Part shown: positions 238 through 5,439 of the stretch, in pieces
Layout of the letters: every line of letters begins with the position of its first letter
How positions within the stretch are numbered: position 1 is the first letter of the stretch
DNA from: Opitutaceae bacterium
GTDB lineage: Bacteria > Verrucomicrobiota > Verrucomicrobiae > Opitutales > Opitutaceae
Length of the DNA stretch: 5,439 nt
Assembly (NCBI GenBank): GCA_031266495.1
Contig: JAISAX010000194.1
Span: 1-5,439 of the forward strand
Direction of reading: 5' to 3'
Position numbers and translations under genes: made by a program
Notes under the pieces: model-generated
Seen by the model: the letters and a program-made list of their open reading frames with translations, nothing else
What the model was told of the DNA's origin: nothing
The model's database searches: none

Positions 238-1686
238 CTATAACAACTTGCCGGGTTCGTAGCTCGTCGCGCCTTTCACCTTTTTCGCCACGGCGGCGAC
301 CGTGCGCACAAACGTGTCCACTTGCTGCGGGGCCGCGCCAACAAAACGCTTCGCATCGGCGAGGATCGCCACGAGCTTCGTCCGCGACAGGCCGAGGCGG
401 GGGTCGTCGGCAAGCAGGCCGGTCAGGTCCGCGCTGCCCCGCCCGGTGCGGATCGCCTTCGCGGCGGCGAGGGCGTGTTCCTTGATCGCGGCGTGCGCCG
501 TCTCGCGTCCGGCACCGGCCTTGACGGCCTCCATCAGGATCGTGGTCGTGGCGAGGAAGGGCAGGTGGCGTTCGTTCTCGGCGGCGATGGCGGCCTCGAA
601 CACGTCCATCCGGTCGAGCACGGTGAGGAGGGTTTCGAGCAGGCCGTCGATCGCATAAAACGCATCGGGCAGGGCCACGCGGCGCACCACCGAGCACGAT
701 ACGTCGCCTTCGTTCCACTGGTGGCCGGCGAGGGCGCCGGTCATCGTCACGTGGCCGGAGAGGATCGTCGAAAAGCCACAGATGCGTTCGCAGTTGCGCG
801 CGTTGACCTTGTGCGGCATGGCCGAGGAGCCGACCTGGCCTTTTTGAAAACCTTCCGTCAACAGCCCCTGCCCTGCCATCAGGCGCAGCGTGGTGGCGAA
901 GCTCGCCGCCGCCGCGCCCGCCTGGTGCAGCGCCGAGACGACCTCGAAATCCAGCGAGCGCGGATACACTTGCCCGACCGCATTGAGTGTTGCGCGGAAT
1001 CCGAGGTGTTTGAGGAGGCGCGCTTCGAGGCGGGCAACCTTGGCGGCGTCGCCGCCGAAAAGCGTGAGCTGGTCGAGCTGCGTGCCGACCGCGCCCTTGA
1101 GCCCGCGCACCGGGTAGCGGGCGGCGAGTTCGTCGATGCGCGTGAAGGCGGCGAGCAGTTCCTGGCCGGCCATGGCGAGGCGCTTGCCGAGCGTGGTGGG
1201 CTGGGCCGGCACGTTGTGCGTGCGGCCGGTGAGCATGAGGCCGCGGTACTGCTTCGCGCGGCGGGAGAGTTTCACGAGCGCGGCGGCCACTTTCATGCGG
1301 ACGACGCCGAGCGAGCGGGCGATTTGCAGTTGTTCGACGTTTTCCGTGAGGTCGCGCGAGGTGAGGCCGAGGTGGATTTGTTCGCGTCCGGCGAGGCCGT
1401 TGAACTCCTCGATGCGGGCCTTCACGTCGTGGAGCGTGATGCGTTCGCGGGCGTCGATGCTGGCGAGGTCGATCCGGGCCTTGACGCGTTCGTAGTCGGC
1501 GATGGCGGCGGCCGGGATGGCCAGCCCGAGGTCGCGCTGGGCCTTCATCACGGCGATCCAGTAATCGCGCTCCAGCGCGATGCGACCGGCCGGCGACCAG
1601 AGGGTCTTGACGAGCGGCGAGGCGTAGCGTTCGGCAAGGACGTTCGGAATGGTGGGGATGGTGCTGCTGCTGGTGCTGGTGGACAT
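238..1686 (-). CDS. purB: Adenylosuccinate lyase (PurB), fumarase/aspartase superfamily
   Basis: A 482-residue cytoplasmic enzyme. The family acts twice in purine synthesis: it splits SAICAR to AICAR plus fumarate, and adenylosuccinate to AMP plus fumarate; it is normally a homotetramer. Visible motifs are HDVKA (86-90), TSRDLTEN (109-116), GRTHNVPAQPTTLGKR (154-169) with the conserved THxxxAQ histidine H157, and the superfamily signature GSSAMPHKVN (286-295) on the flexible catalytic loop. The C-terminal helical region follows (about 370-470). Length fits the longer, roughly 480-residue ADSL type. The frame is open to 1758, but the extra 24 residues are only translated 7-bp repeats (ILHS-type peptide), so the ATG at 1684-1686 is chosen; the protein then begins MSTSTSSS, followed by a family-like IPNVLAERYAS. 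No Shine-Dalgarno is visible; the start follows a heptamer array by four bases. It is divergent from the DUF47 gene and appears monocistronic. Confidence 0.96.
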   Translation of the reverse strand: MSTSTSSSTIPTIPNVLAERYASPLVKTLWSPAGRIALERDYWIAVMKAQRDLGLAIPAAAIADYERVKARIDLASIDARERITLHDVKARIEEFNGLAGREQIHLGLTSRDLTENVEQLQIARSLGVVRMKVAAALVKLSRRAKQYRGLMLTGRTHNVPAQPTTLGKRLAMAGQELLAAFTRIDELAARYPVRGLKGAVGTQLDQLTLFGGDAAKVARLEARLLKHLGFRATLNAVGQVYPRSLDFEVVSALHQAGAAAASFATTLRLMAGQGLLTEGFQKGQVGSSAMPHKVNARNCERICGFSTILSGHVTMTGALAGHQWNEGDVSCSVVRRVALPDAFYAIDGLLETLLTVLDRMDVFEAAIAAENERHLPFLATTTILMEAVKAGAGRETAHAAIKEHALAAAKAIRTGRGSADLTGLLADDPRLGLSRTKLVAILADAKRFVGAAPQQVDTFVRTVAAVAKKVKGATSYEPGKLL

Positions 1687-1690
1687 GGCG

Positions 1691-1732
1691 GAAAATGAAG
1701 AATGGAGAATGCAGAATGGAGAATGCAGAATG
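1691..1732 (-). repeat. Six-unit heptamer array in the purB leader
   Basis: In the purB sense there are six consecutive 7-bp units: CATTCTG, CATTCTC, CATTCTG, CATTCTC, CATTCTT and CATTTTC. Four bases (CGCC) then precede the ATG. The third and fourth units repeat the first two exactly, so the array also reads as a 14-bp repeat. The final unit departs from the rest by ending in TTTTC, as also seen before pit and rtcB. Its position, immediately 5' of the start with no Shine-Dalgarno, suggests a role in transcription or translation initiation, which is inference. Confidence 0.85.
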
Positions 1733-1777
1733 AAAGGCGAAACCGGGCCTCCCGGCATGTTTCCTCATTCTGCATTC
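1721..1777. repeat. 13-bp inverted repeat formed by opposed heptamer arrays
   Basis: GAATGCAGAATGA at 1721-1733 is the exact reverse complement of 1765-1777. The right arm belongs to a short plus-sense heptamer array (CATTCTG, CATTCCT, CATTAGC at 1766-1786) that points towards the DUF47 gene. The left arm belongs to the purB array. Inside the loop lies a smaller hairpin, CCGGG-CCT-CCCGG (1743-1755). A further hairpin, CGGGCG-CCG-CGCCCG, lies just outside at 1786-1800. The structure sits centrally between two divergent starts and could form a cruciform or an RNA hairpin in either leader. No clear -35/-10 promoter pair was found. Confidence 0.7.
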
Positions 1778-1848
1778 CTCATTAGCGGGCGCCGCGCCCG
1801 GGATTTCGGCTTTTACAACGGCAGACCATTTGCTACCCAGCACCCCTG

Positions 1849-2487
1849 ATGTTTTCGCTCAAATCATTGTTCGGAAAAGACGAGAAGTTCTACGACCTTC
1901 TCGAAGCCAGCGCCGAGGAAGCGCTTGTCAGCACCCGACTCCTCGCCACCTACCTCAAACGCAGCGAATCGTTCACCTCGGCGGGCGACCTTGACGATTT
2001 TATCCAGAGCCGCCGCAAGGACAAACGCATCACCCAGCAGATCACCGAAGAACTCTGCAAGACGTTCGTCACCCCGATCGAACGCGAAGACATCGAGGAG
2101 CTTTCCCGCGCCCTCTACCGCATCCCCAAGATCGCCGAAAAACTCGTCGAGCGCCTCTCCATCTACCCGGGCCGTTTCCCGCGCGAGGGCTTCCAGCGCC
2201 AGACCGAGCTGCTCGGCCAGGCCGCCGAAGCCGTCGTCTTCATGGTCAAACAACTCCGCAAGGGCGCGAAGCTCGAAGGCGTGCAGGAAGCCAACGAACG
2301 CCTCCAGTACGCCGAAGGCCAGGCCGACAAGGTCATGCTCGGCCAGCTCAAGGAGCTCTACCACGGGCCCTGGGATGCGAAAGAAACCGTCATCCTCCAG
2401 GAACTCTTCGAAATGGCCGAAAAGGCCATCGACCGCTGCCGCGACGCCGGCAACGTCGTCTTCCAGATCGTCCTGAAATACTCCTGA
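1849..2487 (+). CDS. DUF47 / PhoU-like protein paired with PiT transporter
   Basis: A 212-residue, largely helical cytoplasmic protein of the DUF47 (PhoU-divergent, Pfam PhoU_div) family, normally 205-215 residues. It is usually encoded next to a PiT phosphate transporter and thought to modulate it. The N-terminus MFSLKSLFGKDEKFYDLLEASAEEA (1-25) is typical of the family and fixes the ATG at 1849. TPIEREDIEELSRAL (75-89) is the family core motif. An ExxxD motif (E156-D160, AEGQAD) resembles the metal-binding motif of PhoU proteins, and the C-terminal helix DRCRDAGNVVFQIVLK (195-210) is also typical. The stretch after residue 89 reads YRIPKI, where relatives usually have a DDI..D-type acidic motif, so one metal site may be altered. 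It lies 59 bases upstream of pit on the same strand and is probably co-transcribed. No Shine-Dalgarno precedes the start; the sense heptamers end about 60 bases upstream. Confidence 0.9.
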   Translation: MFSLKSLFGKDEKFYDLLEASAEEALVSTRLLATYLKRSESFTSAGDLDDFIQSRRKDKRITQQITEELCKTFVTPIEREDIEELSRALYRIPKIAEKLVERLSIYPGRFPREGFQRQTELLGQAAEAVVFMVKQLRKGAKLEGVQEANERLQYAEGQADKVMLGQLKELYHGPWDAKETVILQELFEMAEKAIDRCRDAGNVVFQIVLKYS

Positions 2488-2491
2488 GTTG

Positions 2492-2512
2492 CCCCTCCCC
2501 TCCCTCCTCCCC
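2492..2512 (-). other. G-quadruplex-capable tract between DUF47 gene and pit
   Basis: The plus strand reads C4-T-C4-T-C3-T-C2-T-C4, starting four bases after the DUF47 stop codon. The minus (template) strand therefore has four G-runs of three or more with loops of 1, 1 and 4 bases, meeting the standard G-quadruplex pattern. It could slow RNA polymerase between the two genes and so set their ratio; that is inference. No classical hairpin-plus-U-run terminator is present, so readthrough into pit is expected. Confidence 0.55.
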
Positions 2513-2513
2513 G

Positions 2514-2541
2514 GATTCCAAATTCTTAATTCTTAATTTTC
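2514..2541 (+). repeat. Heptamer array in the pit leader
   Basis: In register these are GATTCCA (degenerate), AATTCTT, AATTCTT and AATTTTC, followed by five bases (GACCG) and the ATG of the PiT gene. Two units are identical, and the last changes to end in TTTTC exactly as the purB array does (C to T at base 5, T to C at base 7). The tract is a sharp AT-rich island in GC-rich DNA. It may be a promoter element or a pyrimidine-rich ribosome loading site, since no Shine-Dalgarno is visible. Confidence 0.8.
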
Positions 2542-2546
2542 GACCG

Positions 2547-3617
<1,071 letters not shown>

Positions 3618-3649
3618 AAACGCACTACGCGGCGCCCTGACCGGACAGT

Positions 3650-3682
3650 CCCCTCCCCCCCCCCCTCCCTCCTCGCCCGCCC
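3650..3682 (-). other. C-rich tract with C11 run, G-quadruplex-capable on minus strand
   Basis: Starting 32 bases after the pit stop, the plus strand reads C4-T-C11-T-C3-T-C2-T-C-G-C3-G-C3. The inner part, TC3TC2TC, repeats the tract at 2501-2509. The minus strand has at least four G-runs and meets the G-quadruplex pattern. The C11 homopolymer (3655-3665) is also a likely place for length error or slippage. It may help end pit transcription before the convergent rtcB gene, but this is inference. Confidence 0.5.
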
Positions 3683-3725
3683 GGCATCCATTCGGCATGT
3701 GGCAGTCCGAAGTATGGGATGTGGA

Positions 3726-3754
3726 CTAAATCACGATCCAGACACCTGATTTAG
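3726..3754. other. 8-bp palindrome in the pit/rtcB convergent region
   Basis: CTAAATCA (3726-3733) and TGATTTAG (3747-3754) are perfect inverted copies separated by 13 bases. The stem is AT-rich and no U-run follows on either strand, so it is a weak terminator candidate. It could equally be a protein binding site. An imperfect dyad, TTCGG/CCGAA (3691-3695/3707-3711), lies just upstream. Confidence 0.35.
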
Positions 3755-3759
3755 CCGCG

Positions 3760-3778
3760 CATGGCCTGCAATGCCATG
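3760..3778 (-). terminator. Possible stem-loop directly after the rtcB stop codon
   Basis: CATGGC (3760-3765) and GCCATG (3773-3778) can pair around a 7-base loop, directly next to the rtcB stop codon (3779-3781). In the rtcB direction the following bases are GCGGCTAAATCA, with no U-run, so it is not a standard intrinsic terminator. It may act as a 3' end barrier together with the palindrome at 3726-3754. Confidence 0.3.
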
Positions 3779-5311
3779 TTACAGCTCAATCTTGATAAGG
3801 CCTTCGCGGCGCTCGCTTTTGTGCGCGGCGCGTTTTTCGCGGCGGACGCGTTGCCAGTGCGGCTCGGGGGCCTCGCCGGCCATGATGCAGCCTTGCGGCT
3901 GGATTTCGCCGACTACGGTCGCGAGGCCGAAGCGGGCGATCTGGGCCTTCACCCTGGTCGCGTCCTTGTAGCCGAGCGGGGACTCGGAAAGGTCGGGCGT
4001 GCCGTTGAACCAGCGCACGTCGATGCCCTGTGTCGCTGCGGAGAGGACTTCCTTCACGCGGGCCGGATCGAGTTCGCCATCGGCGTCTTTGTAGGGACGC
4101 AGCATGGCGGTGCGCGAGAGGTTGCGTCCGGCGCCGTGCGGACAAAACGACAGGTAGTCGGTGTTGTCCGCGCCGAGCACGAGGAGGATTTCGCGGGCCA
4201 TGTTGAGCGGGATCAGGCCGGGCAGCGGACGGCCCTGGTCGTCGCGCCATGCCGGCGTGGCGCCCTTGCCGTGCAGGAACACGTCGCCGCGTTTCCACAC
4301 GAAGTTGTGCTCGTTGCCAATCTGCACGAGCGAGCGCTGACCGATACGACCAAGGAACGCGTCATGGATCATGGCGTGGTTGGCGCGGGTCCAGCGGGCG
4401 ATGTATTGCAACGCCTCCCAATAGGCCTCGCCTTCACGCGAATCGGCGGGCAGCCAGACGGCGGCGTCGGGGATGTCTTTGGCGTTCTGGTTGCACCAGG
4501 CGCGGGCGGCTTTCTGGCCGCGCTTGTAGAGGTCCGCGCCGATGCCGCGCGAACCGTGGTGGGTCACGAGGACGTTGAACTTGCCGTCGCGGCGCGTGAT
4601 CGCCTCGGCCAGCCCGGCGTGGCCGGCGGCTTCGAGGGCGGCGCGCTGCGTATCCGTGAACTGGATATGACCGACGTAGGCGAAGTGGTTGCCGTCGCCT
4701 TGCGTGCCGAGGAAATCCTGCGCGCGGCTGCGCAGTCCGGAGAGGAACGGGTTGTCCCACACCGGCTCGTCGAGCACGGCCGAGGTGAATTGCTGGCCAC
4801 GCGGACGTCCGCCGGCGCCGAAATGTGTCACCTTCTGCAGGTGGTTCATGAGTTCCTCGACCGGATGGTTGTCGGCGAAGAAGGTGGCGAACATCGAGCA
4901 GCAGATATCGGCCGAGTGAGCGCCCGGGATGATGGCGTTTTCCACGGCAATGGCGCCGCCGACCGGGATGGTCGCGGTGCCGCCGCCGGACGGACAGGTG
5001 TCGGGCATCAGCACACCGCGCTGAATCACGGGCGTATGCAGGAGTTCCTTCATGCGCTGGCGGGCGGAGGCGACGTTGGCGGTTTCCTCGTCGGTCTCCG
5101 CTTCGACGGCTTCGGCGAGCGGGGCGGCGGAGGTGCGCGGCAGGATCAGCGGAAGCTGTTTCGGAAACTCCTGTTCGAGTTGGGCGAAGATTAATGCGCG
5201 GTCGAGGCAGGTGGCGTCGAGTTCGCGGGCGCGGCGGAGGGCGGAGCCCAGGCGCGGGCCTTCGAGCCAGCCGAGGGCGAGCAGGTCGCGGGCTTTGATT
5301 TCCATGGTCAT
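3779..5311 (-). CDS. rtcB: RtcB-family RNA 3'-phosphate/5'-OH ligase, divergent and extended
   Basis: A 510-residue cytoplasmic protein. RtcB joins RNA 2',3'-cyclic phosphate or 3'-phosphate ends to 5'-OH ends, using GTP and Mn2+ through a histidine-GMP intermediate, in tRNA splicing or RNA repair. The catalytic parts are present: D135/C138 in SADICCSM, H209 in GDGNHF, H251 in THHGSRGIG, H335 in NEHNF, and the guanylated-histidine motif PHGAGRNLSR (391-400, H392). Two canonical features are altered. The PDxHxG motif reads PDTCPSGGG (103-111) without histidine. The C-terminal KG reads PQGCIMAGE (472-480) without lysine and is followed by a basic tail of about 30 residues. An extra N-terminal region (1-95) includes ARDLLALGWLEGPRLGSALRRA, which resembles a motif in the tail of CCA-adding enzymes. 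The ATG at 5309-5311 is chosen because a heptamer leader ends five bases upstream; the ATG at 5303-5305 and a longer frame to 5368 are possible. Convergent with pit; no rtcA or prfH is visible. Confidence 0.92.
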   Translation of the reverse strand: MTMEIKARDLLALGWLEGPRLGSALRRARELDATCLDRALIFAQLEQEFPKQLPLILPRTSAAPLAEAVEAETDEETANVASARQRMKELLHTPVIQRGVLMPDTCPSGGGTATIPVGGAIAVENAIIPGAHSADICCSMFATFFADNHPVEELMNHLQKVTHFGAGGRPRGQQFTSAVLDEPVWDNPFLSGLRSRAQDFLGTQGDGNHFAYVGHIQFTDTQRAALEAAGHAGLAEAITRRDGKFNVLVTHHGSRGIGADLYKRGQKAARAWCNQNAKDIPDAAVWLPADSREGEAYWEALQYIARWTRANHAMIHDAFLGRIGQRSLVQIGNEHNFVWKRGDVFLHGKGATPAWRDDQGRPLPGLIPLNMAREILLVLGADNTDYLSFCPHGAGRNLSRTAMLRPYKDADGELDPARVKEVLSAATQGIDVRWFNGTPDLSESPLGYKDATRVKAQIARFGLATVVGEIQPQGCIMAGEAPEPHWQRVRREKRAAHKSERREGLIKIEL

Positions 5312-5316
5312 GTTGG

Positions 5317-5330
5317 GAAAAGTAAAAAGT
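5317..5330 (-). repeat. Two-unit heptamer leader before rtcB
   Basis: In the rtcB sense, ACTTTTT and ACTTTTC follow in tandem, then five bases (CCAAC) and the ATG. The unit sequence differs from those at purB and pit, but the architecture is the same: the last two units share their first bases, the final one ends in TTTTC, and the spacer is 4-5 bases. Two units alone would be weak evidence; the match to the other two leaders gives it weight. No Shine-Dalgarno is visible. Confidence 0.6.

Positions 5331-5393: not shown

Positions 5394-5439
<46 letters not shown>

Follow-up and report, generated by a model that had tools for sequence, protein, structure and literature searches.

Heptamer arrays upstream of purB, pit and rtcB

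We analysed a 5,439-base stretch of contig JAISAX010000194.1 from an Opitutaceae bacterium (the window), which codes for purB, a PhoU_div gene, pit and rtcB (Table 1). Relatives of the PurB protein belong to the Opitutaceae. Tandem arrays of 7-bp units had been noticed directly before three of these genes, and the first-pass annotation suggested a conserved initiation device. The array letters and coordinates proved correct on re-reading. In the sense of each gene, the leaders run CATTCTT-CATTTTC-CGCC-ATG for purB (minus strand, ATG at 1686-1684), AATTCTT-AATTCTT-AATTTTC-GACCG-ATG for pit (2521-2549) and ACTTTTT-ACTTTTC-CCAAC-ATG for rtcB (minus strand, 5330-5309). Tandem Repeats Finder (TRF) recovered the purB array at 1690-1732 (6.1 units, with a higher score for a 14-bp period) and the pit array at 2521-2538 (2.6 units), and found no tandem repeat in the rtcB leader.

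Lag-7 scores over the 42 nucleotides (nt) upstream of the start were 16 for purB, 11 for pit and 7 for rtcB. Among shuffled upstream regions, 0.5% reached 7 and about 0.009% reached 11, but none reached 16. At the starts of G117, the closest genome available for comparison, these scores were attained by 2, 9 and 37 of 1146 genes, respectively. The rtcB leader, made of two imperfect units, is therefore weak evidence, since 37 of 1146 starts match its score. Its start is also ambiguous: the protein opens M-T-M, and the gene caller chose the second ATG (5305). Thus, the claim of tandem arrays lying beyond chance stands for purB and pit, but rtcB falls within chance reach. The purB array has a feature absent from the earlier account: heptamers at 1761-1783 form its inverted partner, and the two arms pair in the RNA fold of the leader (z -3.6).

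Table 1 Genes and heptamer features of the window.
Feature	Position	Strand	Remarks
purB, adenylosuccinate lyase	238..1686	-	Pfam Lyase_1 and ADSL_C
purB heptamer array, flush to start	1691..1732	-	pyrimidine-rich arm in purB sense; lag-7 score 16
Core separating both purB arms	1733..1760	-	small GC-rich hairpin inside (RNA fold)
Inverted partner arm of purB array (TTCCTCATTCTGCATTCCTCATT on plus strand)	1761..1783	-	TRF; partner score 13
PhoU_div (DUF47) gene	1849..2487	+	Pfam
pit heptamer array AATTCTT AATTCTT AATTTTC	2521..2541	+	5 nt from pit ATG
pit, phosphate transporter	2547..3617	+	Pfam PHO4
rtcB, RNA ligase	3779..5311	-	Pfam RtcB; start 5311 or 5305
rtcB T-rich heptamer pair ACTTTTT ACTTTTC	5317..5330	-	weak; lag-7 score 7

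Period-7 arrays at gene starts and stops

The G117 genome, a single contig of 7,317,842 bp, aligns to window positions 239-3620 at 92% identity (3.4 kb). We sampled 80 stretches of it (1.596 Mb), in which a simple coding model that ignored upstream sequence called 1193 genes, and counted as a period-7 array any score of 9 or more within 42 nt. Such arrays preceded 20 of 1146 starts (shuffled, 1) and followed 20 of 1122 stops. Other lags gave 0-2 cases before starts (lags 5, 6, 9, 10 and 11), and lag 8 gave 11. Loci from other Opitutaceae had arrays at 16 of 943 starts and 21 of 937 stops; other Verrucomicrobiota yielded 1/216 and 1/206, and Actinomycetota 0/361 and 0/349. The start enrichment that the first-pass annotation had proposed to look for was thus present in G117, both for the arrays and for TTTTC near ATG, yet arrays were equally common after stops.

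Array starts in G117 often carried an inverted partner arm further upstream (16 of 31, versus 21 of 1104 control starts). Among arrays flush to a start, 21 of the 22 in G117 and 9 of the 11 in other Opitutaceae were pyrimidine-rich in the sense of the gene. In G117, a phage-like stretch present in duplicate (L173, about 7607-7648, and L178) also places an AATTCTT array before a gene; over the 800 bases compared, the sole difference between the copies falls within the array.

Inverted paired elements and their placement

Many G117 arrays are matched by an inverted copy, with a core of roughly 20-110 nt in between. A search for inverted repeats, in which left arms were tested for periodicity, returned 15 lag-7 loci at p<1e-4 in 1.6 Mb; none of the remaining lags between 4 and 12 exceeded 3. 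The 5' arm was purine-rich in all 20 lag-7 loci of the p<1e-3 set, compared with 130 of 234 other inverted repeats. Widening the search to periods 7 or 8 gave 34 candidate elements, some perhaps other repeats. Their words include AATTAAG, CAGAGGC, AGTTGGA/AATTTGA, GTTCAGA/GTTTGGA, AATGACG and GCTGAAA, and their cores are mostly unrelated. Seven elements in relatives use other words again, among them GAGCTGG, whose arms at L207 measure 77 nt, and CCAACGT (L236). The L207 case (9214-9535, genome G218) has its inverted GAGCTGG-type arms around 168 nt, and this core too consists largely of heptamers.

Placement was assessed for the 26 of 34 elements inside called gaps. A Pfam scan of 49 flanking products matched 44 (one below the cut-off) and left 5 without a match. 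Two of these five, at L114 beside purB and at L143, had been assigned to the wrong strand, an error that we amended manually; at the L114 position the window has the PhoU_div gene, and the L143 neighbour is a proton-antiporter gene on the opposite strand. After correction, 23 gaps were codirectional and 3 divergent, a preference (p=0.015) over the background of 462 codirectional gaps among 681 of at least 70 nt, as called. In 12 of the 23 codirectional gaps the element leaves at most 25 nt free; random positions predict 0.47 (maximum 4 in 5000 draws) and random gaps 5.9 (p=0.004). Element ends lie flush (within 16 nt) in 19 of 23 stop-facing and 12 of 29 start-facing cases (p=0.004), or 17 of 20 and 11 of 26 once three elements with an unverified neighbour are set aside. 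Sites include rpoB-rpoC and infB-rbfA, two lie between NADH dehydrogenase genes, and three element gaps fall in an operon with microcompartment shell genes. Start-facing arms are richer in AT when flush than when further away (0.75 versus 0.53, p=0.002). Flush stop arms are AT-rich too (0.70 versus 0.44), and AT content therefore does not single out starts. The elements of the G117 sample thus have period 7, inverted pairing, a purine-rich 5' arm, a preference for codirectional gaps and flush placement, the last seen at stops and also at starts where gaps are short.

Turnover between related genomes

In both the window and G117, purB has an array with an inverted partner, built from different units: the window alternates GGAGAAT and GCAGAAT, and G117 repeats pure AATGAAG. 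Spacing differs as well, the G117 array ending CATTTTTTCC immediately before the ATG. The pit array is missing from G117 although both of its neighbouring genes align well between the two genomes. Conserved spacing, a pillar of the initiation-device proposal, did not survive this comparison. Among more distant relatives, the purB upstream stretches listed contained no comparable array by eye, with starts on the minus strand or unadjusted. We did not find rtcB in G117; G116 gave two matches.

We compared rpoC leaders at 30 loci out of 51 matching genomes, dropping G164, which lacked a start. G117 alone of the 29 had a period-7 leader, which rules out a conserved rpoB-rpoC element; several relatives carry AGGGA-like words there. 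For rbfA (30 of 50 matching genomes), 5 of 30 leaders had period 7, with differing words, against 1 at lag 8 and none at lags 5, 6, 9 and 10. Inverted heptamers were visible by eye in the rbfA leaders of G005, G034, G047 and G103, the counted threshold being passed in 5 of 30 only. Arrays therefore turn over between related genomes.

Start context and the TTTTC ending

G117 makes little use of Shine-Dalgarno motifs, whose words are barely above chance. GGAG, GAGG or AGGA occurred at -20 to -4 in 7.6% of 1025 ATG starts, 7.5% of shuffled sequences and 11.6% of internal ATGs; AGGAG or GGAGG showed a small excess (3.0% versus 1.7% shuffled and 2.5% internal). The same interval contained TTTTC at 7.1% of ATG starts; the figure was 1.7% after shuffling and 2.1% for the 10658 internal ATGs, and at -45 to -28 the word occurred in 4.9% of starts. 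Near the start it was most frequent at spacers of 2-5 (41/1025). Across 576 starts, C occupied -1 in 59%, with T maxima at -7 and -8. TTTTC within 7 nt of the start marked 12 of 31 array starts versus 58 of 1115 others, and the exact form TTTTC-N4-5-ATG was found at 5 of these 31 starts and at 22 of all 1146. Because the word is enriched at starts at large, and more so at array starts, we take a TTTTC ending to belong to the context of starts in general, which array units assume more frequently than other leaders.

Probable arms of an intergenic repeat class

The arrays are probably the outer arms, or one-armed relatives, of a class of intergenic repeats in Opitutaceae. A full element would consist of a short core between two inverted arrays whose units measure 7 bp, or sometimes 8 bp, its words varying by locus and genome while period 7 and the inverted layout stay. 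Slippage in 7-bp steps together with inverted copying may make the arrays grow and change, and they would persist where they do little harm, chiefly in operon-internal gaps. In a short gap, the arm rich in pyrimidines would become the leader of the following gene. Starts could tolerate this because Shine-Dalgarno motifs contribute little to initiation there, and the terminal unit would be drawn toward the context typical of starts in the genome, T-rich and ending in C. A direct part in initiation, if any, would be secondary. On this reading, the three odd leaders belong to a repeat class found across the genome, with members in the gaps of core operons. Such elements would offer a natural test of how bacteria initiate translation once repeat DNA replaces the leader, and they bear on why bacterial tandem repeats favour 7 bp.

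Several observations weigh against this interpretation. We looked for inverted partners of the pit array and the rtcB units and found none (partner scores 6.5 and 4.5), so that both are at most presumptive arms or remnants. By our criterion, noncoding 7- or 8-bp arrays are partnerless in 38 of 83 cases in G117, about half, and in 32 of 39 in other Opitutaceae loci. Outside G117, the 5' arm was clearly purine-rich in three of seven elements and reversed in one, and G227, G119 and G022, three of six other complete or large genomes from which samples of 120-140 kb each were taken, yielded no element. Furthermore, the tests drew on a related genome in place of the window's own and on a home-made gene caller, which put 2 of 49 checked genes on the wrong strand; counts of starts and stops, partners and pyrimidine bias are uncorrected for this. 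A bolder variant of the repeat-class reading seems decidedly unlikely to us: that these are fast-evolving paired heptamer elements, made by an unknown copying process that steps by 7 bp, whose pyrimidine-rich arms became Shine-Dalgarno-free start leaders. Under it, words would change across genomes while period 7, the inverted layout and the gap-filling position persist, even at rpoB-rpoC.

The nearest competitor keeps the initiation device: a start-specific, pyrimidine-rich, T-ending array that loads ribosomes without a Shine-Dalgarno motif, perhaps via protein S1. The TTTTC excess near ATG starts, with GGAG/GAGG/AGGA at the shuffled level, speaks for it, as do the pyrimidine bias of start-flush arrays, the higher AT content of start-flush arms and the concentration of TTTTC at array starts. 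Other observations count against it. Arrays are as frequent after stops, stop-facing ends are flush more often and AT-rich too, the exact TTTTC-N4-5-ATG form is present at only 5 of 31 array starts, the purB spacing and last unit differ between sister genomes, pit has no array in G117, and the rpoC array occurs in one genome of 29. We therefore regard a start-specific device as unlikely. Given their equal frequency at stops, upstream inverted partners, flusher stop ends, varying spacing and differences between orthologues, the arrays are not start-specific and probably form no dedicated start signal. The start-specific location by which an S1-type device would be recognized was not found. Because start-flush arrays are pyrimidine-biased, start arms AT-rich and Shine-Dalgarno words near chance, an S1-type contribution to initiation is possible, and to this extent the original proposal survives in weaker form. 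Its suggestion of a promoter -10 is improbable as a general account and was rejected as such, since several arrays lie between operon genes (rpoB-rpoC and infB-rbfA among them). Chance resemblance among T-rich leaders could accommodate rtcB alone; the purB and pit scores, judged by shuffling, leave it almost no weight.

Two further explanations start from the paired layout. A selected RNA hairpin in operon mRNAs, resembling repetitive extragenic palindromic (REP) sequences and bacterial interspersed mosaic elements (BIMEs), could protect mRNA or couple stop to start by looping out. BIMEs are placed between codirectional genes, and the codirectional, stop-flush placement seen here fits this, as do the folds of the purB leader and of the L161 and L119 elements (z -6.9 and -6.3), whose strength is partly by construction since inverted repeats were preselected. 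However, the pit leader formed no hairpin (z 0.4), and mismatches that keep G-U pairs numbered 26 versus 29 A-C in 23 elements called codirectional (one later reassigned), which gives no support to RNA-level selection for pairing. Matching of arms was no closer inside an element than across elements for the AATT family (p=0.84) and slightly closer for the CAG family (p=0.008); an earlier, strong-looking arm test (0.80 versus 0.52) was biased, its arms having been chosen by their own pairing. This leaves a selected hairpin quite improbable. Spread by a transposase, as a miniature inverted-repeat transposable element (MITE) or REPIN-like family, is suggested by two CAG elements on L188 that share 98% of their core between unrelated flanks, by 41 matches to one CAG element across G117 (many overlapping or on two strands at one place) and by lineage-specific presence. 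The remaining cores are mostly unrelated, we saw no consistent target duplication by eye, and no paired lag-7 element lay beside any of the six Y1 transposase (Y1_Tnp) loci of G117, where we thus saw no link to REP-associated tyrosine transposases (RAYT). We consider such mobility very improbable. One of the six loci has CAGAGGCCAGAG repeats 220 nt apart, and two (L341, 689-883; L342, 2670-2864) carry a near-identical 20-22 bp inverted repeat, ACCTGAATGGCGCTAAGTTA.

Relation to described repeats

Two published systems resemble these elements in part. The 'global regulator sites' of Geobacter metallireducens, in the passages of PMC2700814 that describe classes 1-3, consist of tandem 7-8mers paired on opposite strands, the distance between partners being variable; in class 3, which counts eight pairs, five heptamers with the consensus MTYCTGA stand in tandem, and binding by IHF/HU is a guess there. 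The Opitutaceae candidates, including that at purB in the window, share the tandem 7-8 bp units and opposite-strand array pairs. Unlike the Geobacter sites, with one consensus per class, they use many words per genome, have mostly unrelated cores, fill gaps at stops and starts and possess a purine-rich 5' arm. The TAACTGA direct repeats of marine Beggiatoaceae, as portrayed in the relevant parts of PMC4679880, end a few nt before the starts of unrelated genes. There, a single word is used, most sets (147 of 170) point toward starts, one case is inverted, Shine-Dalgarno motifs are few, and a translational role via S1, Csp or CsrA is suggested. Start-flush heptamer arrays and scarce Shine-Dalgarno motifs recur here, but with units such as CATTCTN, AATTCTT and ACTTTTT among many words, with inverted pairs and with no bias of starts over stops (20/1146 versus 20/1122).

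A preference for 7-bp units is also known from long heptanucleotide simple sequence repeats, discussed together with polymerase slippage and found in many genomes (Mrazek 2007, as cited in PMC4679880); inverted pairing lies outside that description as cited. REP, BIME and REPIN sequences, going by the portions of PMC3733652 that define them, are likewise intergenic and palindromic, but the present elements are built from tandem heptamers and lack the GTAG/CGTC-tagged short stem. Unlike the REP sequences and REPINs of RAYT, they do not flank Y1 transposase genes at the six G117 loci. Our literature search, which covered no supplements, found no account of these repeats in Opitutaceae, which does not prove that none exists. 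On the sections compared, we read the Opitutaceae elements as a variant that is inverted like the Geobacter sites and start-flush like the Beggiatoaceae repeats, with many words and no start preference. The many words per genome and the gap-filling placement are the less usual features.

Other features of the window

Window positions 5394-5439 are a run of 46 G at the window end, probably a sequencing or assembly artefact. At 95-232, 3' of purB, lies a large REP-like palindrome (GGCGGCATTCCTGCCGCTGCGAC and an inverted copy). Pieces related to this palindrome occur in G117 in both orientations.

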